NCBI RefSeq assembly: GCF_002161065.1
Contig: NZ_NFLV01000030.1
Span: 1 to 38,999, forward strand
DNA: 38,999 bases
Direction of reading: 5' to 3'
Source: Eubacterium sp. An11
GTDB lineage: Bacteria > Bacillota > Clostridia > Lachnospirales > Lachnospiraceae
Below the pieces are notes generated by a model, which worked only from the letters and a program-made list of their open reading frames with translations, was not told the DNA's origin and ran no database searches. Below are positions 9,641-31,700 of the stretch, in pieces (position 1 is the stretch's first letter; every line of letters starts with the position of its first letter). A program made the translations under genes and the position numbers.

Positions 9641-9669
9641 TTGTATTTTGCGGCTTTTTCTTTTATACT
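9641..9669 (+). promoter_or_regulatory. Sigma-A-type promoter for the HAD–oxidoreductase operon
   Basis: TTGTAT (9641–9646), a spacer of exactly 17 bases, then TATACT (9664–9669). It lies about 90 bases before the fusion gene, in the divergent gap from the McrB-like gene. Confidence 0.6.
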
Positions 9670-9693
9670 GTTCTATATATAAAAAGGAGGACC

Positions 9694-9759
9694 ATGGACC
9701 GGCAGAAAAGCGGAGGCGTCATGACGGGACATGGATATTACAAAAAGGAGACAGGATAA
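9694..9759 (+). CDS. Possible 21-codon leader ORF
   Basis: ATG at 9694 follows AAAAAGGAGG directly (short 3-base spacing) and reads 21 codons (MDRQKSGGVMTG…, ending KKETG). Its TAA stop shares its last A with the ATG of the downstream gene (TAATG). It lies just after the predicted transcription start. This arrangement suggests translational coupling. The peptide resembles nothing I know, and it may be only a coupling device or chance. Confidence 0.35.
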   Translation: MDRQKSGGVMTGHGYYKKETG

Positions 9760-11582
9760 TGAAGCGTTACATATTTTTTGATCTGGACGGAACGCTGACG
9801 GACCCGATGATCGGCATCACTTCTTCGGTACAGTACGCGCTCTCAAAGTTTGGAATCTCGGTCCGATATCTAAAAGAACTGATCCCGTTCATAGGGCCGC
9901 CTCTGGCGCAGTCTTTCCGGGAATTCTACGGATTTTCCGAAGAGCAGGCGGAGGAAGCGGTAAGATATTACCGGGAATATTTTTCACCCAAAGGCATTTT
10001 TGAAAATGAGATCTATCCGGGTATCGCGCAGCTTCTGGTCACTTTGTACGAAGCGGGGTTTGAGCTGGCAGTGACTACATCTAAGCCGCGGGTATATGCG
10101 GAGCGGATCTTGAAACATTTTGGTATTGATGAATATTTTTCCCTGGTGGCCGGCAGCGAACTGGACGGGACAAGGGTGAATAAGAACGAAGTGATCCAGT
10201 ACGCTCTGGATGCCTATGGTATTTCCGGGAATGACGCGCTGATGATCGGCGACCGGAAACATGATATGGAGGGGGCCGCCGCCTGCGGCGTGGAATCTGT
10301 AGGCGTGCTCTACGGCTACGGTTCCTGGGAGGAACTTACGGCAGCGGGAGCCGGACATCTGGTGGAAACGGTAAAAGAACTGCGGGAGTTTTTACTGGCG
10401 CAGGATACAGACAAAGAGGAGGAGGATACAACAATGGTACGATTCGGATTTATCGGCACGGGAAAGATCGCGGAGAATTTTTATCAGGCCAACCGTTTTA
10501 TCAACGGATTTGAACTGACGGCAGTATATTCAAGAACTATGGAGAGGGCGAAAGAATTTGGTTTTCGCAAAGGCAGCCTGGCGTATTTTGACGATCTGGA
10601 GGAATTTGCGAAGAGCGATGCCTTTGACGCAGTCTATCTGGCAAGCCCGAACTGCTGTCATCACGACCAGGCCATCGCCATGATGCGGGCGGGAAAACAT
10701 GTGCTCTGTGAGAAACCGCTGGCATCCAATTACGAGGAAGCAAAGGAAATGTTTGCGGTGGCTGAAAAAGAAGGCGTGATCTTAATGGAAGGCATGCGTT
10801 CCATCTATACGCCGGGATTTCAGAAGATGACAGAATATATGGAGACCCTCGGACATATCCGCCGGGCGACTCTCCAGTACTGCCAGTACTCTTCCCGGTA
10901 TGATAATTTCAAAAGAGGCATCATCGAGAACGCCTTTAAGCCGGAACTTTCCAACGGGGCGCTTATGGATATCGGCGTGTACCCGGTGGCATGTATGATC
11001 CGCCTCTTCGGTGCGCCAAAGAGCGTGAAGGCCGCGGGCGTCCGGCTTAAGGGCGGCGTGGATGGAGAGGGAACCATCCTTATGGAATACGATGACATGA
11101 TCGGCGAGGCCATCTATTCCAAGATCACCGACGCAGCCGTACCGAGCCAGATTCAGGGGGAAGAGGGCTCCATGATGGTGAGCGAGATCGAAAATGTAAA
11201 GGATCTCCGCATCCGCAGAAAGACTGTAACGCAGAGCATCCATTTTGAGCAGTCTGATAATACTTTGAATTATGAGGCGGCCGCCTTCATAAAAATGGTA
11301 AAGACAGGAACCGGATGGGAGGCCGCCAGAGATATCACCCTGGAGACCATGAAAGTGCTTGACGAGGCCAGACGTCAGATGGGAATCGTGTTCCCGGCAG
11401 ATGAGAAGACAGCTGAGGCGGCAGCGGAGACCGCGCCGGAAGAAGATAAGGCATCTGCCGGAGAAGCGGAAGCCGCCATGCCGGAGGAGAAGACGGAACA
11501 AAAACCGGAACCAGCGGCTTCAACAGAAGAAGAGAAGAGTGCAGAGCCGGAGGAGAAAGAGGGAGAATCCCCGGCAGAATAA
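9759..11582 (+). CDS. HAD phosphatase–Gfo/Idh/MocA oxidoreductase in-frame fusion
   Basis: A single 607-codon frame with two enzyme domains. Residues 1–218 are a phosphoglycolate-phosphatase-like HAD hydrolase: FFDLDGTLTDP (nucleophile Asp8, acid Asp10), AVTTSKP, a VNKNE lysine and MIGDRKHDMEGA. Residues 226–548 are an NAD(P)-dependent sugar-type dehydrogenase: GFIGTGKIAENF nucleotide loop and CEKPLASN catalytic lysine. The tail, about 550–607, is Glu/Ala/Pro/Lys low complexity. The ATG at 9759 has AAGGAG and begins the HAD domain; the frame is open further upstream without a better start. At the junction the second domain begins with its own ATG (10434), preceded by GAGGAGGAGG, so a separate oxidoreductase may also be made. 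Substrates are unknown. The sigma-like gene starts 18 bases after the stop, so they likely share a transcript. Confidence 0.85.
   Translation: MKRYIFFDLDGTLTDPMIGITSSVQYALSKFGISVRYLKELIPFIGPPLAQSFREFYGFSEEQAEEAVRYYREYFSPKGIFENEIYPGIAQLLVTLYEAGFELAVTTSKPRVYAERILKHFGIDEYFSLVAGSELDGTRVNKNEVIQYALDAYGISGNDALMIGDRKHDMEGAAACGVESVGVLYGYGSWEELTAAGAGHLVETVKELREFLLAQDTDKEEEDTTMVRFGFIGTGKIAENFYQANRFINGFELTAVYSRTMERAKEFGFRKGSLAYFDDLEEFAKSDAFDAVYLASPNCCHHDQAIAMMRAGKHVLCEKPLASNYEEAKEMFAVAEKEGVILMEGMRSIYTPGFQKMTEYMETLGHIRRATLQYCQYSSRYDNFKRGIIENAFKPELSNGALMDIGVYPVACMIRLFGAPKSVKAAGVRLKGGVDGEGTILMEYDDMIGEAIYSKITDAAVPSQIQGEEGSMMVSEIENVKDLRIRRKTVTQSIHFEQSDNTLNYEAAAFIKMVKTGTGWEAARDITLETMKVLDEARRQMGIVFPADEKTAEAAAETAPEEDKASAGEAEAAMPEEKTEQKPEPAASTEEEKSAEPEEKEGESPAE
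10418..10436 (+). promoter_or_regulatory. Internal ribosome binding site and ATG at fusion junction
   Basis: GAGGAGGAGG followed by about seven bases and ATG (10434–10436), in frame, exactly where the Gfo/Idh/MocA domain begins. It is what one would expect of two formerly separate, adjacent genes. Confidence 0.5.
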
Positions 11583-11600: not shown

Positions 11601-12359
11601 ATGGGAGGACAGACAGAATTTTTGGATGCGGTGCGGGAGCTGGAACGGCTCGCCCAGACCAATAATAATCATCTGAATATGGAAGAAATCCGTTCCTATT
11701 TTTCAGATATGAATCTGAAAGACGAGCAGCTTGATTATATCTGCCGCTATCTGGAAAGCCACCGGATCTTTATCGAAGACCGGGTAAAGCGCGGGCAGAA
11801 TGAGATCGCTGACGAGGATGTCACCACCAGGGAGGATCCGCTGGACGCCGATATGGTGAACATTTATATGGAAGAAATCGGTAAGGCCAGTCAGGTCAGC
11901 GAGGAACAGGAGGAGATGCTGGTGCGCAAGCTCATCAACGGAGACGAAAACGCCAGAAATCTTCTCATCGAGGCCAATCTGGCCTACGCCACCGCCCTGG
12001 CAAAAGAATACACGGGGCGGGGACTTCTGCTCAGCGACCTGATCCAGGAGTGCAACATCGGCCTGATGACGGCCGTCAATGAGTACGAGCCGCGGATGCA
12101 TGGCAGTTTCCGGAAGTATAAAGAAAAGATCATCCGCCAGTATGTGGAGGATGTGATGGCGGAATACAACCAGTCCACCCGGTCTGCCATGAAGATGGCC
12201 ACCCGGGTCAACGAACTGAATGACCTGGCCACCGCTTTTGCCAAGGAGTACGAGCGGGAGGCGAAGCCTTCGGAGCTGGCGGAGCGCATGGGCATCTCCG
12301 AGGAGGAAGTCCGGGAGCTGATGAAGGTGTCACTGGACGCCATCGCGGTGATCGAATAG
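11601..12359 (+). CDS. Sigma-70-like protein lacking region 4 (RpoD paralogue)
   Basis: A 252-residue protein clearly related to the RpoD encoded about 2 kb downstream. An N-terminal region (5–60: NNNHLNMEEIRSYFSDMNL) matches Rpo[20 protein letters not shown]. Region 1.2 is near 84–96 (DMVNIYMEEIGKA). Regions 2.1–2.2, which contact the core polymerase, are well kept (119–162: LLSDLIQECNIGL). Regions 2.3–2.4, which melt and read the -10 element, are replaced: Rpo[12 protein letters not shown] becomes FRKYKEKIIRQ. A region-3 helix-turn-helix-like segment follows (AKPSELAERMGISEEEV), and there is no region 4. It could bind core polymerase without recognising promoters. It has AAAAGGAG before the ATG and starts 18 bases after the fusion gene. 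Function not known; a decaying duplicate is the alternative. Confidence 0.8.
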   Translation: MGGQTEFLDAVRELERLAQTNNNHLNMEEIRSYFSDMNLKDEQLDYICRYLESHRIFIEDRVKRGQNEIADEDVTTREDPLDADMVNIYMEEIGKASQVSEEQEEMLVRKLINGDENARNLLIEANLAYATALAKEYTGRGLLLSDLIQECNIGLMTAVNEYEPRMHGSFRKYKEKIIRQYVEDVMAEYNQSTRSAMKMATRVNELNDLATAFAKEYEREAKPSELAERMGISEEEVRELMKVSLDAIAVIE

Positions 12360-12458: not shown

Positions 12459-14234
12459 ATGAGATACGAGGATGATGTAATTGAAGAGGTCAGGGAAAAA
12501 AATGATATCGTGGACATTATTTCCCAATACGTTTCCCTGAAAAAAAGGGGCTCCTCCTACTTTGGACTTTGCCCTTTTCATAATGAAAAATCGCCTTCCT
12601 TTTCTGTCAGCCGGGAAAAGCAGATGTATTATTGCTTCGGCTGCGGACAGGGAGGAAATGTGTACACATTTTTAATGGAATATAACCGGCTCTCCTTTGT
12701 GGAAGCATTGCAGGAACTGGCCAGACGGGCCGGAGTGGAGCTGCCCCAGGGAGAGCAGACGCCGGAGGAGAAGCGTCAGGCGGATGCCAGGGTGACTTTG
12801 AAGGAAATGAACAAAAAGGCCGCGGTATATTTCCACTACCTGCTGAAAAGTTCCCGGGGCGGGCACGCCATGGCTTATCTGAAAGGCCGGGGCATTTCCG
12901 ACGAGATGATCAACCATTTCGGCCTGGGATATGCGGACATTTACCGGGATGACCTGTATCAGTATCTGAAAAAGCAGGGTTACAGCGATTACCAGATGAA
13001 AGAATCTTCTCTGGTGACCATCGATTCGGTGAAAGGCAGCTATGACAAGTTCTTTAACCGGGTCATTTTTCCCATCATGGACGTGAACCAGCGGGTGATC
13101 GGCTTCGGCGGCCGGGTCATGGGAGACGGCGAGCCCAAATACTTAAACTCCAGAGAGACCATTTTGTTTGATAAGGGAAGAAATCTCTACGGTCTCAACT
13201 ACGCCAAGAGGACCAAGGAGAACTCCATTATCCTTTGCGAGGGATACATGGACGTGATCTCTCTGCATCAGGCGGGCTTTACCAACGCAGTGGCGCCGCT
13301 TGGCACTGCATTCACACCGAATCAGGCGATGCTGCTGAAGCGCTATACCGACGAAGTGATACTGTCCTTTGACAGCGACGGCGCCGGAGTGAAGGCCGCG
13401 CTGCGCGCCCTGCCAATCCTGCGGGAAAACGGACTCCGGGGACGGGTGCTTTCCATGAAGCCGTTCAAGGACCCGGACGAGCTCATCAAAGAAGAGGGTG
13501 CGGAAGGATACCGAAAGCGGCTGGAGGAATCGGAGCCGGGCCGGATGTTTGAGATGCTGGTGCTCTACGGGCAGTATAATCAGAAAGACCCGGAGAGCCG
13601 CACGGAATTTATCCGCGCCATCGCCAGAAAGCTGGCGGAGATCGAGGAGCCTGCCGAGAGAAATACCTACCTGGAGGCAGCGGCCAATCGTTTCATGATC
13701 GTCCGGAAGGACCTTACCGATCTGGTGAACCGGTACGGCATAGATTATCAGTACAAAAAAGCCAACGAGCAATACAAAAAAGAACCGGAAAGCCGGGAGA
13801 AGAAACAGGAGAAGAAGGAGCAGAATCACAGCCAGCCTCAGCGGATTCTCCTCACCTGGCTCACCGAACATCCGGAGATATATCCGTATGTCCGGCCCTA
13901 TGTGAGTGCCGACGATTTTCTGAATCCACTCTACCATTCGGTGGCTATCATGCTCTTTGATCAGCTGGAGCAGGGACAGGCCGTGAATCCGGCGCGGATC
14001 ATTAACCAGTTCACCGAGGCCGAGGAGCAAAAAGAGGTGGCGTCGCTTTTTAACGCCCATCTAAAGTACGAGACTTCCCCGGAAGACAGGGATAAGGCGC
14101 TCACCGATGTGGTGAAGAAGATCCTCATGACAAGTATCGAGGATGAAATGGTCCACACGGGAGATATCGTCCGGTGGCAGGAGCTTCTGACAAAGAAAAA
14201 CAAGGTGCAGAAGCTGCAGCTTCATATAAATTAA
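12459..14234 (+). CDS. dnaG: DNA primase
   Basis: A 591-residue primase that makes RNA primers at the replication fork and is recruited by the DnaB helicase. The N-terminal CHC2 zinc finger has Cys38, His41, Cys59 and Cys62 (GLCPFHNEKSPSF … YYCFGCGQGGN). The central TOPRIM domain shows ILCEGYMDVISLHQAG (about residue 257–270) and the metal-binding FDSDGAG (about 304–310). A charged linker (about 435–460, KKEPESREKKQEKKEQ) separates it from the C-terminal helical domain that binds the helicase. The length is normal. The ATG has GAAAGAGG upstream. It stands between the sigma-like gene and rpoD in the classic dnaG–rpoD order. The 99-base gap upstream has no terminator. Confidence 0.97.
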   Translation: MRYEDDVIEEVREKNDIVDIISQYVSLKKRGSSYFGLCPFHNEKSPSFSVSREKQMYYCFGCGQGGNVYTFLMEYNRLSFVEALQELARRAGVELPQGEQTPEEKRQADARVTLKEMNKKAAVYFHYLLKSSRGGHAMAYLKGRGISDEMINHFGLGYADIYRDDLYQYLKKQGYSDYQMKESSLVTIDSVKGSYDKFFNRVIFPIMDVNQRVIGFGGRVMGDGEPKYLNSRETILFDKGRNLYGLNYAKRTKENSIILCEGYMDVISLHQAGFTNAVAPLGTAFTPNQAMLLKRYTDEVILSFDSDGAGVKAALRALPILRENGLRGRVLSMKPFKDPDELIKEEGAEGYRKRLEESEPGRMFEMLVLYGQYNQKDPESRTEFIRAIARKLAEIEEPAERNTYLEAAANRFMIVRKDLTDLVNRYGIDYQYKKANEQYKKEPESREKKQEKKEQNHSQPQRILLTWLTEHPEIYPYVRPYVSADDFLNPLYHSVAIMLFDQLEQGQAVNPARIINQFTEAEEQKEVASLFNAHLKYETSPEDRDKALTDVVKKILMTSIEDEMVHTGDIVRWQELLTKKNKVQKLQLHIN

Positions 14235-14408
14235 AAATCACACAGAAAGAAAATACGGACAGGCTTTTTCAATACGTCCGGCAGTATACAGAAGAAAGAA
14301 TAATTCAGAAAAAAACGGTTAGACTTTACTTAGTATATTGGCACATTTCTTATGGAGAGTGCCGACGCGGCGGCATGGCGCGGCAAAAAAGAAATTGGAG
14401 GGCGTATT

Positions 14409-15506
14409 TTGGACAGGGAAGAACAAACCTTTGGCAGTCAGTTGAATATTTTGTTTCAGAAAGCGGAAAAAAATAAAAATGTGCTGGAAATGCGGGAAAT
14501 CAGAGAGGCATTTCAGGATGTTTCCCTGACGCCGGTGCAGCTGGAACGCATTGTCTCCATGCTGGAAGCCCGGAATATCGATGTGCTCACCGTGTCGGAC
14601 AGCATGGATGAAGACCTGAGCGACCCGGAGGAGGAGATGGAGAGCGCACTGAACCTGATGGATTCCGAAAATGTATCCATGGAAGATCCGGTGCGTATGT
14701 ATTTAAAAGAAATCGGAAAGATCCCTCTGCTGAAACCGGAGGAAGAAATCGAACTGGCCAAGCGGATGGAGCAGGGCGATGAATCCGCCAAACGGAGACT
14801 TTCCGAGGCCAATCTGCGTCTCACTGTCAGTATCGCCAAGCGTTACGCCGGAAGGGGCATGCAGTTTCTGGATCTGATCCAGGAAGGCAATCTGGGGCTC
14901 ATCAAGGCGGTGGACAAGTTTGATTACCGCAAAGGCTATAAGTTCAGCACCTACGCCACCTGGTGGATTCGCCAGTCCATCACCCGGGCCATCGCCGACC
15001 AGGCCAGAACCATCCGGATTCCGGTGCATATGGTGGAGACCATCAACCGGGTCAACCGGGCGAGACGGGCGCTTCTGCAGGAGAAAGGACGGGAACCGAC
15101 GCCGGAAGAGGTGGCTCACCGTATGGAAATGCCGGTGGAACGTATCCTGGAGATTTCCAAGATCTCTCAGGAACCGGTCTCCCTGGAGACGCCCATCGGC
15201 GAGGAAGAAGACAGCCATCTGGGCGATTTCATTCAGGACGAGCATATCCCGATCCCTTCGGAGGAGGCAGCCCATTCTCTCCTGCGGGAACAGCTCTGTG
15301 AAGTGATGGACACTCTCTCCGAGAGAGAACAGAAGGTGCTTTCCCTTCGCTTCGGTCTGCTGGACGGCAAACCCCATACTCTGGAGGAAGTCGGCAAAGA
15401 CTTCCAGGTGACCAGAGAGCGCATCCGTCAGATTGAGGCAAAGGCTCTCCGGAAGCTCCGCCATCCGACAAGAAGCCGCAAACTGCGGGACTTTCTGGAT
15501 ATGTGA
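14409..15506 (+). CDS. rpoD: Primary RNA polymerase sigma factor (TTG start)
   Basis: A 365-residue housekeeping sigma factor. Region 1.2 is at about 93 ([16 protein letters not shown]), region 2 at 134–205 ([37 protein letters not shown]), then region 3, and region 4 at about 301–358 ([36 protein letters not shown]). It lacks the long non-conserved insert of proteobacterial RpoD, as usual for Firmicutes. An ATG at 14352 extends the frame but has no ribosome binding site and adds unusual residues. TTG at 14409 has GGAGGG six bases upstream and gives the typical N terminus, so it is chosen. It lies 174 bases after dnaG; I could not identify a clear promoter in that gap. Confidence 0.95.
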
Positions 15507-16757: not shown

Positions 16758-19700
16758 ATGAAAAAAAGAAATTTCTGGGCCAAATGCATAGCATTCCTGC
16801 TGGTTGTTGTCATGGTCTTAAGTGAGCAGAATATCACTACTCTCGGCGAGACCATCGGCAGCTACGCACAGGAGCGCATGACTGGCAGCTCAGAGCAGGA
16901 GACGGAAAGAGCAATTATAAAAGAGGACTCTTCTCAGGAGAGTTCTTCTGCGGATGGTTCGTCGTCCAGTTCGTCGGAGACGAGTCAGGCAGAAAGCTCA
17001 GTAAGCAAAAATGATTCTCAGAAAACGCAGCAGACGGATAACAATTCCGATGCGGGCAGCGCACAGACAGACCAGGGGACAAGTGCGTCTTCCGGGCAGC
17101 AGGCGCTGACAGACGGCGCTTCGGATGTGGACAACGCCGGCGCTCAGAATGAGAAAAAGACTGCTGATGACAAGAAAAACAATCGGCAGAATGCTCAAAA
17201 AAAGCAGAAAGCGAAAACAGAGGAGCAGAATGACGGACAGACCGCCGGTAATGAGAATGGTCAGGATAATGGCGGTAATAACGGTGAAAATACCGGAGAT
17301 AAAAGTGGCAAGACGTTTAAAGATGTTGCGGAAGAGAACTACGGAGATAATGGAACCCAGAAGACCGCAACCGTAACGATCACCAAAAGAGGAAACCGGA
17401 ATCAAACGGATGTGAAAGCGGGAAGCACCATCAGCTATGAAGTCAGCTATCATTTGTTCTCGGCTGTATATTTTGACTACGGAGAACAGAGCCGACCGCT
17501 TTTTGATACTTATAATGATACAAAGATTATTCTTCATCTTCCGGATGGTTTGACAATTGATAAGGATGCAGAAGGTACACTGCAAAATGTTGTATCAATT
17601 ACCGAACCACAAAAAGGAGCCCCAAATGACTGGATACTGGAATTAAATAATCGTATACAGGCAGATTCCGATAAAAGCGGAACCTTTCTTGTGAATCTTA
17701 AAGTCGATGGCAACGGAAGACTTGATGTCGGGCATGATTTCAATTTTGGAGAGGGTAATGCCCTTGCTGAAATTCAGACAAGCTTTACGATTATGGACCG
17801 TACCGGTACTACAGATAAGCCGGCAGAAGGAATAGAACCCTATACAAAAACGATTGGAACCACAAGTACTCTCAATGACCTGGAAGCAGTGACCGATGAC
17901 AGTTGGATGATCGAGAAGGAAGCAAATGGATTTACGCCAAATGCCGACGGTACAGTAACAGTAAAATATAATTTATCCATAGGATTGAAAGGTACAACTG
18001 TCGAAGGAGACAATACAAAAGACAGTATTATCATAGACCCGGGTACATATGGACGGGAAGGACGTGCGACATTTAATGATAAAGTTACTTATGAATCTAC
18101 GGATGGAACAGAAGTTAGTTACCCGGCCGTTAAGCTGACGGAGATTCCAACTGTGACGGGAAAAGATGGAAAACCAATCAACGCGAAAAGTATTACGGTC
18201 ACTCCGTCTTTTGATGAGTTGTCTCCGATTACAGTCAACGATGGAGCGGTTCTTATTCCTATGGATACCTGCGAAGGTCAGACGACAGGCGCCACAGTAG
18301 ATAAAGATGCTCCATATCTGTCAAACTATACGGTGGAAGTGGTATATGAGAATTATGAGGATAACTTTGTTGCTCATTATTATGATTCCAAGCAACAACA
18401 GCAGAAGCTGGACGTGGTAAATGAGGCGGATATTGAGTATCAGTTTAAAGGCGAGACAACGAAACAGACATATGATAGCAAAGCCACACAGCCGGTCGGA
18501 GACGTAACAAAACCGGCAGCAATTAATCTTAGTAAACATATTGTGGATTATAAAACGAATACGTCAAAAGTGTACAGTTGGGCGAACTTTTCCAATGATC
18601 CGGTCAGTGGAGCGGTTACGTATGAGATTAAAACAAGTGACGGCAAAGTTCCAACTCTCTATCAGTATGATGAAAAGACAGGAATATATAGTCCAATCAG
18701 GAATGTTGACGGGAGCGATGACGGAAAGATAGTCTTTGATCCGGCACAAAAACAAAATCAGGAAAATGCATCTGGTCTGGTGACTGTATATCTGGATCCG
18801 GGGACTTATACAATCACTGAAACAGATATGCCTGATAATACTGAGAAAATACCTGCGACAGAAAATGACGAAGGCAAAAATTCTGATTCTAAAACAATAA
18901 CAGTTGCTGCCGATCAGACGAAAGATGTTGTCTTTTATAATAAAGAAAAACTGGGAGACATCACGATTCATAAATATGGACGAAAAAACGGCGTGGATAG
19001 TCCGCTTGCGGGAGCAACCTTTGGCATCTATACGGATTCGGAATGTACTAAGCCGTATGCATCTTATAAGGATGGAGTGCAAACTATCGCCGACGGTACA
19101 GCGACATTTGCGAGACTTCCGTATGGTACATATTATGTGAAGGAAACAGAAGCTCCGACAGAATATATTAAAGATACGGAAACGTACACGTTTACGATTC
19201 CAACAGATAACAATGTTACCTTGAAAGAAAACAGTATCAATAAATACAATCGGGCTCCGGTTGAACTGCGGAAACAGATGTATAATCCAAATGAGACAGG
19301 AGATAACAAATATGTAAATGTCACAGCTGCGGAAGCCGGAAATTTTGCCAATTGTTTTGAGGTGCAGAAACAGAATGAGAATGGTACATGGACTCTTCTC
19401 ACAGCCTCAGGGTTGGGAGTATCAGAAGGTGCTTATCCGTTGTCTCTGAATCAGACAGGAAAAATCAGTCTGAGTCTTCCGGTATACAAAGATAACGGAA
19501 CGACAGTTATTACGTATCGGTTCAGAGAAACCTTGCCGGATGGCTGGCACGCTGATAGTGAAGATACAACTGAGGAGGCTGGTAAAAGATTCGCATATTC
19601 TGAGCCATTTACTCTTGCGGAGAAGATAGGTAATTCAGACGCAGACCCATATACCGTTACGATGAAAAATGATCGAAATGGCAGTATTGAGCTGACGAAG

Positions 19701-22700
19701 GAGTTTTATTCCGCAACGGCTTCCGGAATGACAAAAAATACGTCTGCGGACCTGTCAGCATCCTTTGATCTATATTATAAAAACGGGCCAGATGGGAAAC
19801 TGGTAAAGTATAATGAGGAAGGCTCTTATACAGTAACAGCAGCAAAGTCGTTAACTATCTCTGACCTGCCTCGGACAGAGACGATAAATGATGTAACGTA
19901 TGACAGATATTATTATCTTGTGGAGAGTGCAACGGAAGATGGATATGCGCCGTCTGCTACAGCAGATTTAAGGGGAACAAATACAGCAGAAAGAACAAAC
20001 CTGTCTGTTGGAGAGGGTGGAACTGATGTTGAAGCTTATGGTCCGTTTAATTTTACAGAAACCTTATCACAGGATGAAGGTGGGACAGGAAGGATTGAAC
20101 TGGCACAGTCGGTTACTATCACCAATGTAGAGCAGAAAGTTCCGGTTGTAGTAAAAAAAGAAGATAGTTACAAAGGTACTTATGTCAGTGGAGCCAAGTA
20201 TAAGATTTATAAATACGATGGTGATAATGCTGAGGATGGTTATAAAGGCGAACTTGTAACAACTTCATCTGATCAAAATTATCAGGGTGAAGATATTCCT
20301 TCCAACGGAGATCTGACAACACTGACGCCGGGACAGAAATATGTTATAGAGGAATCTTTTGTACCTTCAAAGTATACTTTTGATTCCATAATAATTGGTA
20401 CTCAGACATCCACTACTACGACGGCAGTGATCGATTTAACTGATACCAATAAAGTAGATACCAATACTACACCTGTTAATGTTGTTATCAAAAACAAACC
20501 GGATCCGACATTTACGGTAACTAAAATAAAAGATAATGCGGTAGGTGACAATGAAGAATTAAAGGGTGTAGAATTTGAGGTATATACCAAAGATAATTCA
20601 AATGTTTTCCAACGTGTGCAAGGATATGATGGTAAGAATTTGACCATCAAATCAGGAACAGCTACATCCATTCCGGCGGGAACCTATTATTTAAGAGAAG
20701 TAGCGGATAGTAAAAATGGTGTCCTTGATCCGTCAAAATATAATTCTTTATATAATGGTGGAACTTATGATGAAACTACTCAAAGTTTTTACTTTGGCCC
20801 ATATGAAATCAAACACAAGGAAAGTGAGCAGGCGCAGATCAAGGAAACTATAACAAACTACTCCGATAAAGGAGCAGTAGAAGTTACCAAATACTACAAG
20901 ACTACAAGTGGAACGGAGTCGCCTCTTGCTAATGCTACGCTTACAATATATGAAGTTGTCAATGGAGTGGAGAAAAAAGTTAAAGATGTAATTAGTGGTA
21001 CAAATGGAAAGGCATTATTTGTTGATCTTTCTATTTATGATGAGCAGGGCAATCCGATTACTTATAGAATTAGGGAAACAGCGGCTCCGGACGGGTATAC
21101 CATCAGTGATGAATATTTGGACGTGACATTGAAGCCGGGTGAGACGGTAACTACACAAAAAGTAAATAATGAGGATGTCGAACTCAAGATTGTCAACCAG
21201 CCAGAGACAACGCTCTACGTAAATAAAACTTATCATAATATATGGGAGAATAAATTTACAGATAAGTCATATTTCTTACCGGGTACTGTGATTGCTCTCT
21301 ACAAATACAATACAGAGACAAAAGTCTATGATTTGCAGGGCACAGAGACCACAGACGAGATGGGCGATGCAATCTTTAGGGGGTTGACACAAAAAGATAA
21401 ATATATCGCCATTGAGGTTTGTGTTCCGGCAGGTGAAGAATACAAATATCTGGAGCCGGATGGAAGAAAAAGTTATCTGAATGCAGATTACTTGCAAGAT
21501 GGATACTTACCACCAACATTAACTAATCAACAGCTTATCGAAGGAAACTATAGCTATGTAACAAAAGAAGTCAATCCAGGCAACCCAATATTGGTATATC
21601 AGGGAGATAGCTATAATTTACTCAATGAGGAACACTGGGCACAGCTTCATATCCATAAATTTGTTACAGATAAAAAAGATGGCGAACCAGACAAAAAACG
21701 AGATATTAACAACGCCGAGTTTACTCTGTATATGCAGGTTGTAGATTTGAAGGGGCAAGATCCGAAAGATGTGAGTAATCCAATTTCTCTGGGATATGAC
21801 TCGTCACATCCGGAATATTATACAAAGATTGGCAGTTACTCCAGCGGAACACTCTACGATACCGAAGGGAATCGGATGAATGGATGGTTCGGAACAGATA
21901 TTTTAAAATCTGCTGATAATGTCGTATATTGGCTCGTGGAGACGGACGCCGGAATCGGAGCGTCTATTAACCCGGAAAATGTAGTAACACTCATCCACAG
22001 GAATGGAACATATTATAAGAACGATACAAAGAATTATTCTTATGTAGAAAATGGAGAAACAAAACCTTGTCCTGAGGGTCAGCCAAATGCAACAATGACG
22101 TATATGGATGACCAGGTGACAGAAGAAGATTTTGAGAATATTCCAGAATATGGTCCTGGGTATGCACAATTTTCCACGGTACGAATTGCCAAATGGCAGG
22201 GCGCGATGGATGAGAGTGGTCAGAGAAAAGAAGAATTTTCACCTCTTGGTAATGCGAAGTTTGAAATCTGGCTGACAAATGAGGAAGGACAGGAGTATGA
22301 ACTGCTGGATACAGTGACTACAGGTCTGGACAATAATTTTGGAGCGGATGCAAGTACAGATACTGATTCCGACGGGGATACGAATAATAATCCAAATGCT
22401 AACCCAATCAGTGGATGGGCGTCCTCAAAAGCATTTGTCTGGAGCCAGATGGAACAGTTAAGAGCAAACTATCCAGATGCCTTTGTGGACGATGAGAAGG
22501 GAAATCACTATGTGCGGATTGCCATCAAGGAAACCACACCGCCAACCGGTTTTATGACGGAAAAACAGACGGTTTATATGTACATGTTTTTCCAGAACAG
22601 TACCAATGAAACTACAGAAGTATTTAATGACGCATATTATGTTAAAACTGCAGAGAATATTGTAAATTTAGCAGAAGAACAGAATGGAATCCAGTGGGCT

Positions 22701-25700
22701 TTTTATCCGACCATGAAAGACGGAGATGAATATAAAGTAGTTGATAGTGACAAGTTTGGAACAGGAGCACCTGTTTCATCAACATCACAGTTCCGTCTGG
22801 TCAACTGGCCGATTGACACTTATGCTGTGACATTACAAAAATATGGCTATGATGTAAAAAATGATAACCTGGGTAAGACATCGAAAGAGTTAGATACATA
22901 TTATACTTCGGGTCAGACTGACAGAAAACCATTGTCGGTGACAATGAAACTGGAACGCTACAACAACGAAGAAAAAGAGTGGAGACCATATACATTGGAC
23001 GGTGATACAAATGGACGATTCCAGACAGGAAGAGATGGTTCTTATATATTCCGGAATGGATTGCCAGTGGGTCATTACCGCATCACTGAGGAGACGCCAG
23101 ACCCAGCTTATGAGAATATCTACGATGGCAGCACGATAGAAAGGGCTGCCGGGGAAAAAAATGCAAAAGCATATTATTTCCAGGTAGTAGACGATAATCT
23201 GAATCTTACCATATATAATCCGAAGAAACAGTCTTTGACTATAAAGAAAACGGATATGGATGACAATCCGTTATCTGGTACGACATTCACTCTCACAGAA
23301 GAGGATGGCACAGAGATTACATCTACTAATAAAGGAGAAGAAGATCCTACTCAGGTATTAAGCAACATCGGTTCGGGTACTTACGTATTGTCTGAGACGC
23401 CAGGTACCAGATATACAAATAGTTACTTTGCATCTTATTTCGCAGCACAGTATGGAAAAATATCTGGCACAGCTGGAAGTATCAATCAGCTGGTTAATGA
23501 AGTAGAGATCAATAATGAAACGAAAAAAGGTATTTTCTTAGGCTATACGACCACATTGGAAGAAGACGGGAACGAAGCCAATGTAGTTGTAAATAGCAAA
23601 ACAGATATCTATGATTATGGTATTTCTGAAAGTAACGATGGCATTGATTTAAATATCAAGAACCCGAAAACGGTAGCTTTCGATATTAAGAAACAAGATG
23701 CACAGGATAATACGGCTTTACCAGGAGCTGTCTTTGAAGTAAAATATTTGGCTTTTAATAATGATGCAATTAATAACGATGCAATCTATAATACCTTAGC
23801 AGAAGCAGCGGGCGCAACAATTGCTGTCAATAGCAGTGATTTTGCTAATGTTACTGCCACAACGTATACTACTGGAGAAGGCGGAATTGCAGCAGTGACA
23901 GGCAATCCGGGTATCTATCAGATTAAAGAGACGACAGCTCCATCTGATTACGACCTCACGGAAACGGCGCCGAAATATGTTGCCATGACCGGAGGATTAA
24001 ATATCAAGAGCGTCACTGTAGATGGAACTGGTATTCCGGTTGACAGGAGTACTGTGGAGGAAACACAGAAGTCAGATAATGATGTGACAATCGAGTTCCG
24101 TGATAAGAAGAAAGTCAGCCTTACAATCATCAAAATGATCAGAAACAAAGAGGATGGTGCAGAAGGACAGCTGGCGGTCAGTGGAAATCCAGAGTTTACA
24201 TTTAACCTGTATGAAGATAATCAGAAACAAAAATTGGCAGGAACCGCAGAGATTCAGTGGTCTGTAGATGGTGAGAACAAAGATACGATTACCGGGTTAA
24301 GTCAGGGTAAGACTTATTATCTGGAAGAGATATCAGGAGAAAACTATGAGGTGTCCGCTTTGAAATTGAATAATAATTCGATACAGGACAACGGAGGATT
24401 ATATACCATCACCATACCAGATAATAGTTCGGCTGAGGTTACAGTCACTGCGGAAAATACTTATCTGCGTGGTAAGATTTCTGTACGTAAAGTAGACGGT
24501 AGCACGGGAAATGTGCTCCATGGAGCAGAATTTGAAGTGTTCCGTCTGGATACAGAGAAAAGTGAACAGGGAGAAACGAAAGTTACGGAAACTCCGATGC
24601 CAAATATTGCGCTCGCAGAAGAGGGTAGTACCGGCGTATATTCGGCGGAAGTTCCGCTGCGCAGTGAGGCAGGAGAAACTTTCCGTATCCGTGAAAAGGA
24701 AGCTCCAACCAATTATCTTCAGGATACTGAAAGTTATATTGATATCACTGTAGAACCTAGACAGATCATGGAAGCGCCTGATCTGCATAATGTAGATGGG
24801 ACATGGCCGTATGCTTCGGGAGACCGTGACGAAAATAACAAAAACATGCTCGCTAATCAGAATTTTCCGAACTACAATGGAGCCTGGATTGATATTACAA
24901 AATATGATGATATCTACGCGGCACAACCTTCCGCGACGCTGGGAGGAGCGGTATTTACATTGTATGAATATAATGCAAATACAGAAACATGGAGCAGCGC
25001 GGGGTCACAAACTACATCGACGGAAAATGGCGCACTTCGATTTGTAGTAAGAGGCGGAACGCAGTATGCGATTGAGGAAACTTCGGCTCCACTAGGATAT
25101 AAAGGACTGGACAGTATTTATCAGCGGAATACAGAGACCGGCGCAGATGAAGCAGTTGCTACAATTAAAGCGAAGATGACCAACGGAGAAGAAAAAACTC
25201 TGTATCAGATTAATAACGGAGCTGCAGTAACTGCGGGTGTATCTTACGCATATGATGCTTATAATATTCCATATCAGTCTTTGCGGATTGAAAAGGAAAA
25301 TGCATTAGACCCGACAACGAGATTGACAGCTCAGGCAGACGTCTACGAGTTGCCGGATAATGTTAGCCTAAACTCTGATGAAGATGTATTAAAGTATCTC
25401 CAGGGAACACTCACAGGAACAGAAGAAGAGCCGAAGGTGCCGACTCCGGTTATCCCGGATGTTGAGGTCAATACGAATGGCAGTGATGGTACGGATCATC
25501 TTTACACTTACGCTGACGGTATCAGTGACCCACGGCTTAATGGAGCTATTGTAGCAGGTAAGTCGTACCTGGTTGTGGAAAAAACAGCCAGCGTCAGTCA
25601 GATTCGCGACAATGACGATGTAGAATGGTATGGCATTGTTGATGTGCCTGAAAATAGTAATAAAAATGGTTCTTATATTGTTACCCTGAAAAATATTGAA

Positions 25701-28700
25701 GGGGCAGCGACACTGTCATTGTCAAAGACGGCAACACCTGATAAATTTGAAAGTCTCTTTACTACAGAGTCTACAACAGTACATTATACAATTACTCCGA
25801 CAGTCAATAATACACTGCCGCTGGATACATTTGTTGTGAATGATACAGGATTGACAGCGTATAATGGAAATACTCAGCTGACAGACACAGACACGCTGAC
25901 CTATCTTAAAAATGGCTACTCTTTGACAGAGGTAACGATAGGCAAAGCAACACATGAGACAAAGGGATATGCTGTTGAGAGTGATGGAGCCGTGGATAAA
26001 ATTACAGCGGAAGTTACTTTCTATGATTTTGATGGAAATCCAATAGGTGAACCGGAAATTCTGGATGTAAGCAATACGGATGCAAAAGCAATTCCGGATA
26101 GTGGCAAGGCGGCACGTGTGTCTGTAAAATATTATTCGACAGATTTTAAGGAAGCAGCAGGGTATGATCTCGGAACTAATTTTAAACCGGGTGATATAGA
26201 TATTACAGCTGTGATTGATCAGCAGAGCGGCGGTAATGGCAAAAAAGAAATTGACCGAATCCGCAATACTGCGCAGACGGTAATGAAATATTATCCGTGG
26301 GATGTGTCCGGTAACAAAGCAGGACAGCCTACAACAGAAGAAAAGTCGGCATATGCGGATGTTGAATTTGAAGCACAAAAAGGCGCAAAGATATCTGTTA
26401 CTAAGGACATTGTTTCTACACAAGAGGGACAAGAAATTAAAACTGTGAATCTTCAGGATACAATAACCTATGAAGTAGAGATATCCAATGCTGCGGATTC
26501 CGGCGCTGCGTTAAAGAATCCATATATCGTGGATTACCTTCCACAGGGTTCTTCCTGGGTAGAGTTCGACAGCGTGAATCCGGTTCAGCTGGTAGATGAG
26601 GACAATACCGGTCTGACTGTCGTAGATGCTCCAAGGGAAACTAAAGATGGAGAAAACGCGGTATTTGTTTATCTGAATGGTAATCTGGAACCAGGCAAGA
26701 GCGTAAAAGTACAGTTGAAGGTTAAAGTGGAGAATACAGTGACTTCTTATGGAACGACCATGTATAATTATGCTTTTGTGGGAAGTACAGAAAAAGGAGC
26801 GCAGACAGATAAAAATCCTCAGGAAGCTTCTTTTATGACGAGTAGTGGCGATTGGGCGCCAACTATAGACAGTATTCTGAATGGCTGGCAGATGTCAGAG
26901 CCACGTAAAAATGCATTAAATACAATGCTGGAAGCTCAGCAGCTGAACGGCGGCGGATATGTTTCCGGTTCCAGAACAGTGAACTGGGCGGGAGATTCGG
27001 ATGTAGTTCTTGTTAAGTCGGCATACGGAGATGCTAACAGTGAAGATGGCTACAGCACGGATATTTTGTCAGAAGTAAGTAACGGTGGTACAATGCACTA
27101 CAGACTTACCGTTTCCAATACGTCAATGTTAAATGGTGTTACGAAGTTTTCTGTCATTGATATTCTTCCAAATGTAGGAGATATGACGTCCGGAAATTCA
27201 TCAAGAGGCAGTGCTTGGGCATTGAATTTCGGAAAAATAGATAATATATATATTGGACAGACAACTGAAGATGAAAATACCGGAACAGTGACAACTCCTG
27301 ATCCTGTATTATCGGATCATTATAGAGTTTATTATTATACAGGAGATTTGAATACTGCCGGATATATGAATCTTTATAATCAGGTAGAAAGTATTGACTT
27401 TGATACTCCTCCGGCTGCGGAATCTGGCTGGGTAACATCAATAGATCAAAACAATATAGGTCAGGTCAAGGCATTTGTCGTGGTAACTGATGATACGGTA
27501 AGACTGAACAATAATGAAAACTTAATTATCGAGTATACAGCAAGGGTAAATAATGGTACAGAGTGGAATGATGAAATTCTGAGCAATAACTCATGGCAGA
27601 ATGCTGTAAACAGCTTTTCATGTAGCTACAGCAGATATGATTTATCTAGTCCATCCTCTGCTTTAGTTAAAGCTGGTATCATTATGGGTTCTAATCAGGT
27701 ATCTGCGACAATCATGCCGAAATCGGTCAGTGTTGGCGGGCAGCTGTGGATTGACAAAGACGGTGATGGTGTAAGAGAAGAAGGAGAGTCTCTGGTTGAA
27801 CAGAAAGATACTAATGGAGAAGGTCAGTCAGAAACGGTGAATAATTTCGAAGGTAATTATCTGGTTGGGCAATTATTGAAGAACTTCAATATCAGACTAG
27901 ATACATATAGCGGAACAAAAACAACTTCTGATGGAAGAACCCCATATAACAAAGGAGACACATGGCATGGAACATATCTGTTCTCTGATTTAAACCCTGC
28001 TATGCTGAAAACGGGTATCACCGATGAAGCGGCTTATCCAAACCAGAATTCTGGTCTGTTCCCTGGCGGAGAAATAGATCCGTCCAAACTGAAAGGTTCA
28101 GCACCGAACACCTATGAACTTATTGCAGATTTGGGAGGCGTGGATGGATTTGAAGTGACATCAGTTGGTAAAACCAGCGGAAAATCCAGAGATCCGGAAA
28201 ATCCTGATAGTTTCCATCCGGAAGGGGGAGACGAGACTACAGATAACAACTTTGTGGTGGATGGTTCCATAACTCGATCTGAGAGATTCTATCTTTGGGC
28301 AACAGATTCTGATTATGATATGACCAAAGATATTGGCGTTGTTCTGAAACGTAATCTGGTCATTACCAAACAGGCAGAAGACACGAAAGAGCCGATAGAA
28401 GGAGTTATCTTCAAAGTTTATGGTCCGTTTGATGAAGATGAGACCATTACGGTGGACAAATTAAAGAATGCAAAGCAGCAGTATACAGACATGACAGATG
28501 CTCAGGGCAAGGCAACCTTCAGCAATCTCCTTTGGTACAAGAAATATGTTATCGTGGAAGAAAGAGTACCGGAAGGGTATGAACTGGACGGCGCTTTTGC
28601 GAAAAAGACAGAGGATGATAATAAGGCTAACTTGTCAGAATTGACCTTAATAACAAATGATGAAATCCTTAAAGGAAAGCCTGCATGGATTCTGGGCGTG

Positions 28701-31700
28701 CCGGATGATCGGGCTCAAGACGCCACAGATGAGGTCACTGTCACCAATAAGAGGACAGCTACAGAGACGTCATTAACTGCATCCAAAACATTTACAAAAC
28801 TTGGTGTGGAACAGTCTCTGACAGCGGATCAGTTTAAATTCTCTTTGTGGAAGGAATACCCGGGAGAAGGCAAATTACCAATTAAGACAAAAGGAATAGA
28901 TGTAAATGGTAATGTAACATTTGCAGCAAGTGATTTTGACGATACTGCAAAAGAGTTGACTTTCACCAGTGAAGGAACATATACCTATTACATCACTGAA
29001 GAGCTACCTACCGAGGCTCAAGGGGCAAATCCATATGAGGGCATCAAGTACGACGAAGCCATTTACAGGGCAACGGTCAATGTAAAATGGACAGACGGAA
29101 AAGGATTAGGAGTAGAGTCGGTTACTTACGAAAAGAAGGTAGGGGATGCTTGGGCGACTGTTGGAAGCGGTGAGACTCCGACATTCACCAACGAATACAC
29201 TGCTACCGGATTTTGGACGCCGGAAGGCACCAAGACGCTGACGGGAAGAACCATGAAGGCGGGAGAGAAATATACTTTCTATGTTAAAGATAAAACAGGT
29301 AAAGTAATTTCTACAGGAACGGCAACTGGTCAGGAAGGACAGCAATCAGCCGAGATAGTATTTAACAACAAAATTGAATATGATCTCAATGATGTGGGGA
29401 AAATCTACACTTATACTATTAAGGAAGATAAGGCAGGACAAAAGGTTTCAGGTGTAATTTATGATGATAAGATTTACACAGTGACCGTAACGGTAACGGA
29501 TAACGGAAAGGGAACTTTAGTGCCACATGCAACCTACAAGGTTGGTGATACTACAGCTAATCAGGCGGACTTTACCAATATTTATGAACCAACCCCAATT
29601 ACTTACACACCGTATGTTTCAAAGACTCTTACCGGTCATGAACTTCCGGTCAATACTGAAAATAAGAGAGAGAAAACATTTACTTTCAGTTTGAGTAAGG
29701 GTTCGTGTAATCCAGAAGATGGAGTTCAAATGCCGTCAACTGAGACATTGGAAATTCCAATTACTAAGGAATCTAGTGCGGATGTAAGTGATGTAAAGAG
29801 TTTTGGTGCTATAACATTTACAAAAGCTGGCACTTATACCTTTACGATTAATGAAGAAAAAACAGATGAAGTTGGAGTTACTTATGATGAAACAGTTTGG
29901 ACGGTAACAGTAAAGGTTACAGATGATAAAGAAGGAAAGCTTACTAAAACTGTGACTTATACAAACAATAAATCGCAGCAGGCTGTGACAATAACTGGCG
30001 ATACGATACCGTTTACTAACAGTTATCAGCCAACTCAAATAGCGGTACCGCTGAGTGTATCCAAAGCGGTGGAGGGCGCTGATATGCCGAAATCACAGAC
30101 CTTTACTTTCAAATTGAGTATGAATGGTCAAAATGATGGTTCGGTAAGCATTCCGCAAGAAGGTATAACAAAAGAGGTTACTGTATCGCAGACTGGCGAA
30201 GCAAGCCGAGAGAAAGTAACGTTTGATCCAATTACTTTTACGAAAGCAGGAACGTATACCTTTAAGATTGAAGAGACAGCCATTCTTCCGGACGGATATA
30301 CAATGCCGACGCCGACCAGATACGTGCAAGTTGTAGTATCGGATAATAATGGTAGATTGCAAAGCAGTGTGGCATATTACCTGTCAGATCCTGCTGTAGT
30401 GGATGGAGACAATACGGCATCTCGTTTTACTAACAATTACCGAACGGTAGATGCAGACTTTGCCCCGAAAGTGATAAAGACTCTGAACGGCGACATTCCG
30501 GCAGGAACAAAAGAATTCCAGTTTAAGATTGAGAACATCTCCGGAGATCAGACAGGTTTTAGTATAACGAACGCAAACTGTGTTGTTGGTTATGCACAAA
30601 CTACAGGTGATAAAGAAGCATATTTTGAGCCAATTACATTTACCAAAGCAGGTGAATATAAATTTAGAATTGAGGAAATCCCTACAGATGCCGATGGCAA
30701 TAAGGGGTATGCGTATGATGATTCTAAATGGATTTTGACAGTCAATGTGGTGGACGATCCTGATGATAATGATAATCATCTTAAAGCGACTGGCACTTAT
30801 GTCAAAGAAAATGGATCTGGTTCAAACAATAATGCAGCATCCTTTACAAACTCTTATGATGTAACGCCTGACACATACGCACCTAAGGTGAAAAAAATCA
30901 TCACTGGCGCTGACATACCGGCTGGAAGAAAAGATAAGTTTGACTTTACATTGACATACAAAGATGCAGACTCTGCTTACGCCGGTGAAGATGTAACAGG
31001 CAGTGTGAAATATGGCAGTGACGTTATGTCGGTCAATGATGTGAAGAATCTGACGATGACAGGCAGTGGTGAAAACAGTTTCGAAGAGCTGACATTCACC
31101 AAAGCCGGAACTTACACCTTTGAAATTAGTGAGACTAAAGGAAATCAGCCTGGATACCAGTACGATGACTCTACATGGACATTGACAGTGACCGTAGTAG
31201 ATGAAAACGGTGTACTTAAAGCGACGCCGTCTTATACAAAGACCGGTGATAAATCAGACACCCAGGCCTCCTTCACCAACACTTACTCTGTAACACCTGT
31301 TGACTTTATTCCTAAGGTGGAGAAACAGTTCAGTGATGACAGTGTAACAAGACCGAGAGCCAAAGACTTCAAGTTCACATTGACTGCAGATGTCAAGAAC
31401 CCGGCAGGCGGCGCATTTACAGGAGTGACTGACGTCGAAGAAGGCACGGAATTGACAGGAGAGAACAACACCCCTACAGCTACGGTAAATGGAGCAGGAA
31501 CTGTCGACTTCAGCACTATTACCTTCAAGCGGGCTGGCACCTACACCTTCTGGATCACGGAGAATGAAGGCGAGGACCTTGGCTACACCTATGATGACTC
31601 CGTATGGACGCTCACCGTACAAGTGAATGATATCGGCGGAGCGTTGCAGGTAACAGATAATGATGTGACCTATGAGAGTGATGATACGGCGGTAGAGCCG

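Follow-up and report, generated by a model that had tools for sequence, protein, structure and literature searches.

The 38,999-nucleotide stretch of Eubacterium sp. An11 DNA analysed here (the window) carries, just upstream of dnaG, a gene for a short protein that resembles the sigma factor RpoD, and the question it raises is what such a protein can do if it keeps the parts of a sigma factor that bind core polymerase and lacks those that read promoters. The usual picture of sigma factors is of initiators competing for core polymerase; if this reading is true, a widespread family in which the competing surface was kept and the initiating one dropped would mean that competition itself has been turned into a regulator, and that polymerase housekeeping inhibitors have been built from a sigma factor itself. 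The short protein appears to be a sigma-70 descendant without the hallmarks of a functional sigma factor, and its recurrence in the Lachnospiraceae, a family abundant in the human gut, hints at transcription regulation that is as yet unstudied. Searches of the open-access PMC literature showed no description of such a short-sigma family among the papers listed.

Anatomy of the short RpoD-like protein

The reading frame of the short gene has an ATG start, 252 amino acids and an AAAGGAG ribosome-binding site upstream. It and the other features referred to below are the following (evidence in brackets):

11601..12359, + strand: putative pseudo-sigma (short RpoD-like protein), 252 aa (ORF, BLASTP, Pfam, genus orthologues)
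11601..11786, + strand: region 1.1-like N-terminal domain, residues 1-62 (Pfam Sigma70_r1_1, 18.8 bits against a cut-off of 22.5)
11847..12029, + strand: regions 1.2-2.1, residues 83-143 (alignment to RpoD)
12036..12056, + strand: DLIQECN, predicted clamp-helix docking motif of region 2.2, residues 146-152 (D403/E407/N409 equivalents)
12081..12185, + strand: degenerate regions 2.3-2.4, residues 161-195 (residue counts, pN/pS)
12126..12131, + strand: codons at the W433-W434 positions, Lys-Ile here (translation and family alignment)
12186..12356, + strand: regions 3.0-3.1 up to the C-terminus, which aligns with E. coli residue 507 (Pfam Sigma70_r3, pN/pS)
12459..14234, + strand: dnaG (directly 3' of the short gene in 23/23 genus orthologues)
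14352..15506, + strand: full-length dnaG-linked RpoD paralogue (evolves faster than RpoD2 elsewhere in the genome)

In BLASTP the short protein and the RpoD encoded at 14352-15506 are 33% identical across 246 aligned columns (E 1e-38), a similarity that far exceeds chance. The two are collinear from region 1.1 to region 3.1, as the preliminary description had read by eye; its placement of DLIQECN in region 2.2 and of the protein's end before region 4 also stands, and since the protein's last residue corresponds to E. coli residue 507, region 3.2 is missing along with region 4 (E. coli numbering is anchored by taking D403 as the first D of DLIQEGN in RpoD, which agrees with the PDB alignment range). 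Sigma-70 membership is given by Pfam matches to Sigma70_r2 (37 bits, cut-off 24) and Sigma70_r3 (33.7 bits, cut-off 25.3); the matches to the region 1.1 and 1.2 models are below cut-off, as is that to the region-4 model, which falls on the helix-turn-helix of region 3. Scores against the RpoD equivalog models are far too low (TIGR02393, 87.8 versus 354 bits; NF006666, 125.7 versus 572), while the neighbouring RpoD passes TIGR02393 (397.9) and lies slightly below the NF006666 cut-off of 572 at 565. The sole hint of a link to defence is a weak match to NCBIfam MzaA, and ordinary RpoD shares it.

The region 1.1-like domain has predicted helices at residues 3-20, 27-33 and 41-53 and is not universal in the family, being nearly absent from five sequences as delimited here. 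Among solved structures the short protein matches SigA, RpoD and other sigma chains such as RpoS and RpoH. An AlphaFold model made from ten genus sequences has sigma-like helices (mean pLDDT 75, pTM 0.50), with a single unbroken helix predicted at residues 170-220, and the chains closest to it in Foldseek are sigma factors (best match the SigA-RpoC model 9a58_A, E 9e-11); TM-scores by query length reach only 0.29-0.41 among the 50 matches listed, so the domain arrangement differs or is uncertain.

At the residue level, the clamp-interface residues of region 2.2 are present as D146, E150 and N152, and the equivalent of L402, which we take to be a core-binding position, is S145. The preliminary description held that the aromatic melting motif is lost; this is right for the W433-W434 dyad, which is K176-I177 here, and wrong for F427, Y430, R436 and Q437, whose equivalents are kept (F170, Y173, R179 and Q180). 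T440 is replaced by E183, R441 by D184, H455 by K198 and E458 by T201. Thus of the residues that mark a functional sigma factor, the dyad and T440 are changed (to Lys-Ile and Glu) and Q437 is kept.

Docking and promoter-contact residues across the family

Passages in PMC4496690, PMC2613000 and PMC10216364, taken jointly, give W433 the role of a wedge in promoter opening, have Q437 and T440 face position -12, and assign contacts with the extended -10 element to H455 and E458; PMC10216364, in the part that deals with the beta' clamp-helix interface, locates D77 and E81 of sigma32 there, and the equivalence of these two residues to D403 and E407 was assigned in the present analysis. Residues were counted after aligning 34 RpoD-type proteins with 84 short genes, which form 62 clusters at 60% identity and include 23 from the genus of this strain. 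The 84 were not filtered for the D-E-N motif, duplicates with other starts were merged (L055/L069, L059/L072, L061/L075), and we left out L089 and L093 (full RpoD), L065 (the same as L016) and L209, L210, L212, L213 and L214 (region 4 present, or approached where the fetched stretch ends).

The docking residues are nearly invariant in the short family (D403 in 83/84, E407 in 83/84 and N409 in 82/84), and L384 (77/84) and Q406 (64/84) are also kept. W433, W434 and P453 are retained in none of the 84 genes, and T440 (2/84), K426 (2/84), R441 (3/84) and T429 (4/84) only rarely; retention is low for Q437 (8/84), H455 (8/84) and E458 (9/84) and intermediate for Y430 (30/84), R451 (34/84), R436 (38/84) and F427 (40/84). 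Identity to the RpoD consensus falls from 0.54 in region 2.2 to 0.08 in region 2.3, and in 64 of the 84 genes fewer than 10 residues follow position 507. Mean net charge over regions 2.3-3.0, the DNA-facing segment, is -5.5 in the short family versus +7.1 in the 34 RpoD-type proteins. The window's protein is a mild member of this family, with the F427, Y430, R436 and Q437 equivalents in place and a net charge of 0 over the same segment.

Sampling tests gave the same picture. Twelve promoter-contact positions named in the papers are kept less than random sets of positions (mean 0.10, p 0.0016), and the same holds for the 11 of them that belong to the 69 RpoD-invariant positions (p 0.005), while the four positions mapped from the clamp interface of sigma32 are kept more (p 0.03 for the exact residue, 0.04 for any RpoD residue). 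The earlier view that docking residues were kept and promoter-reading residues lost therefore extends from the one protein to 84 family genes, and the regional constraint reported below agrees with it. Three other sigma factors of the same genome keep D403 and do not keep E407 or N409, so the motif retained by the short family is stricter than core binding generally seems to need. On the other hand, L402 is changed in 84/84, the usual RpoD residue is found at position 413 in 8/84, and Q406 is Gly in 16/84; these changes may alter or weaken docking.

Conservation and selection within the genus

The short protein is found in 23 of 24 genus genomes (this one included) with no in-frame stop within the match, and the sole genome without it, G014, is 76% complete; the absent or stop-riddled orthologues by which a decaying duplicate would have been recognised were thus not what we found. 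Its dN/dS is about 0.04, and the neighbouring RpoD has the same value. When this genome is compared with G020, dN and dS are 0.028 and 0.69 for the short protein, 0.030 and 0.74 for the dnaG-linked RpoD, 0.014 and 0.48 for DnaG, and 0.005 and 0.66 for RpoD2, a second full RpoD on another contig of the same genome (L045:10540-11640, contig C34).

Constraint was also estimated by region. Among four close species and among eight species, respectively, pN/pS is 0.104 and 0.204 in region 1.1, 0.031 and 0.214 in 1.2-2.1, 0.062 and 0.108 in 2.2, 0.178 and 0.270 in 2.3-2.4, 0.022 and 0.086 in 3.0, and 0.042 and 0.099 in 3.1; these values are rough, since synonymous differences are large (pS by region 0.39-0.79) and in places near saturation. 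Regions 2.2, 3.0 and 3.1 are consistently tight, region 1.2-2.1 is tight among the close species and not across the eight, and regions 2.3-2.4 are loose yet still constrained. The comparison of 2.2 with 2.3-2.4 that the preliminary description proposed thus came out as its reading would predict (0.062 versus 0.178 in the close species).

Distribution and origin of the short-sigma family

A profile search of 75 Lachnospiraceae genomes from 75 genera (at least 95% complete; search complete at a threshold of 1e-35) led us, on reading the sequences, to accept, for 37 of the 75 genera, an open short ORF that lacks region 4. Two of the accepted ORFs (L199, L207) have a doubtful start codon; G069, G101, G119, G143 and G084 (stop inside the match, or a fragment) were not counted, and G079, G151, G124, G134 and G118 (region 4 present or approached) were set aside. 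With no open short ORF accepted in 38 of the 75 genera, the protein does not fill a universal need. In an order-level survey of 97 genomes, ORFs of <345 aa that match the profile end to end are present in at least 8 of 11 Lachnospiraceae genomes, a count that takes in G069 (internal stop) and G493 (sequence unread), G367 having a ninth, shorter one. None was seen in the 86 genomes of other families among the matches listed (down to about E 7e-21), and weaker matches there, covering residues 69-251, were taken as other sigma factors. A class-level survey of 98 genomes likewise had none recognised in 95 non-family genomes among the matches listed, matches in G599, G522 and G586 being left out.

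In a quick maximum-likelihood tree with 117 rows, the 75 short rows (72 genes, three of them entered twice) fall on one side of a single branch, whose SH-aLRT of 84 is below the 95 mark; the outgroup rooting is not clean. This grouping favours a single origin; long branches and the missing C-terminal columns could help to produce it. Carriage by phages was considered and rejected, as a scan of viral contigs with profile A3 returned at least 80 matches of 38% identity or less, mostly over residues 80-250, that were taken to be ordinary sigma factors.

Some distant family members (L078, L081, L083, L091, L195 and L220) have histidine-rich tails and may bind metal. Another Lachnospiraceae genome has full-length RpoD genes in tandem (L236, on contig C2 of G114).

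Genomic surroundings of the short gene

The preliminary description asked whether orthologues recur before dnaG, and they do so only within the genus: dnaG is the next gene after the short gene, on the same strand, in 23/23 genus orthologues and adjoins it in 0/25 resolved neighbourhoods outside (25 of 27 loci were resolved, with at most four ORFs per side and fewer at contig ends). By similarity comparison, in which not all neighbours were named, the 25 loci have no constant neighbour of the short gene. Since the neighbours vary throughout, a constant region-4 or anti-sigma neighbour is not seen, and the arrangement is as for a trans-acting factor. Contexts specific to subgroups, named from reading the sequences, include a membrane protein, a 150-aa protein, an M16-type peptidase and an Era-type GTPase. 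A promoter scan found two promoter-like sites, with 2.4 expected by chance, and none between the short gene and dnaG.

The full-length RpoD beside the short gene has a dN of 0.030 where that of RpoD2 is 0.005, so it is probably not the housekeeping copy; it looks like a dispensable duplicate, and the far more conserved RpoD2 looks like the housekeeping sigma factor. In the dnaG-trmK interval of seven other genus loci, rpoD is absent in G003 and G015, cut in G005, and present in G020, G007 and G006, the seventh, G021, having no resolved outcome. The suggestion that dosage of the short gene is tied to dnaG-rpoD consequently finds no support as a general feature, with dnaG adjacent in none of the 25 loci outside the genus and three of the seven others within it having no intact dnaG-linked rpoD.

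In the one-contig genome G005 the two parts of this rpoD lie about 39 kb apart (L047:12363-12974 and L323), the cut coincides with the W433-W434 dyad codons or lies next to them, and a serine-recombinase-like gene adjoins it; the sigma gene has apparently served as an integration site.

Possible functions of the short protein

Near-invariant docking residues together with the disappearance of promoter-contact residues in 84 genes support the reading that the short protein is a non-initiating, core-polymerase-binding pseudo-sigma, derived from RpoD, that tunes polymerase occupancy, and we give this reading an even chance of being correct. As RpoD does, the protein would dock through region 2.2 on the clamp helices of beta', regions 1.1 and 3.1 would add further core contacts, and the complex would be silent, as it has neither region 4 nor the finger of region 3.2 and the residues for opening a -10 element are missing. 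By competing with RpoD for a share of the core enzyme, the protein would then set the amount of free polymerase; NusG, another user of the clamp helices, may be a second competitor. We infer core binding from the residues, and likewise infer competition and a physiological role; a protein that still docks and no longer initiates would most simply compete with RpoD for core, and it may act on polymerase that is elongating or idle. A broader reading, in which the family as a whole consists of single-origin, Lachnospiraceae-specific chromosomal pseudo-sigmas that bind core through the RpoD motif, have an acid-shifted DNA face and no dyad, and serve as built-in regulators of polymerase occupancy or hibernation, is more doubtful, and we offer it tentatively.

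Of known proteins, RpoD/SigA (group 1 sigma-70) is closest, having the same order of regions from 1.1 to 3.1 and the same DLIQExN motif; the short family differs in lacking the W-dyad, most residues that read the -10 and extended -10 elements, region 3.2 and region 4, and in being acidic on average in a segment that is basic in RpoD. T4 gp55 is also a sigma factor without region 4, and it reads late promoters. The N-terminal domain of NusG/RfaH has a fold unrelated to that of sigma factors.

Four other explanations deserve consideration. The short protein could be half of a split sigma factor, its region 2 binding core while a separate region-4 protein finds promoters. Such two-subunit sigma factors exist, and in the portion of PMC8103513 on Bacillus subtilis SigO-RsoA, RsoA, like the short protein, bears region 2 without region 4; several small region-4 ORFs, unlinked and seemingly too short for region 2, are also present in this genome. 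RsoA and SigO, however, work at real promoters, whereas the short family has lost melting functions and not region 4 alone (W433 and W434 lost in 84/84, T440 in 82/84, Q437 in 76/84, and the DNA-facing charge changed family-wide). As no region-4 gene recurs beside the short gene in the 25 resolved loci, and some of the small region-4 ORFs read as mobile-element genes, the region-4 partner offered by the preliminary description has lost ground and we regard it as quite improbable. It is also unlikely that the protein is a sigma mimic that titrates an anti-sigma factor or other sigma-binding regulator and not polymerase. The sigma-like domain of PhyR serves such a non-initiation purpose, acting against the anti-sigma factor NepR (in the PhyR passage of PMC8103513), and the strongly conserved regions 3.0-3.1 could form a partner surface; but PhyR has a response-regulator domain and a Pfam scan of the short protein found no receiver domain, the gene has no constant neighbour of any kind in the 25 loci compared by similarity, and the most conserved motif of this RpoD-derived protein is the polymerase-docking one.

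There is a small chance, too, that the protein is an elongation-phase factor that, once initiation is over, takes the NusG/RfaH position on the beta' clamp helices and alters pausing or recycling. NusG binds these helices according to the relevant part of PMC4650657, and the short protein would use the same site. HARE-HTH, the domain type of the delta subunit, had no match in 13/13 family genomes searched (a B. subtilis control matched), so a delta role may be open; G227 and G308 are among those without HARE-HTH and have no short copy among the matches listed, so there is no pattern of replacement, and as genomes with and without the short gene were alike negative we dropped delta replacement as uninformative. 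The last explanation, a functionless leftover of RpoD duplication, could account for a protein shorter than RpoD with degenerate regions 2.3-2.4, in a genus where another rpoD copy is missing or cut by insertion. It is very improbable indeed: the 23 genus orthologues have zero stops, the dN/dS of the short protein equals that of the neighbouring RpoD, the motif and the end point are shared family-wide, and we reject a decaying duplicate on this conservation, selection and lack of stops.

Other observations in the window

Just upstream of the short gene, at 9648-11582, a HAD-phosphatase-like domain and a Gfo/Idh/MocA-like oxidoreductase are apparently fused in one ORF, and in some genus members the oxidoreductase part alone is matched. 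Downstream, positions 16758-33542 form one ORF whose 5594-aa product begins with a signal-like segment, contains repeated domains and has a membrane anchor at its C-terminus; it is probably a giant surface adhesin.
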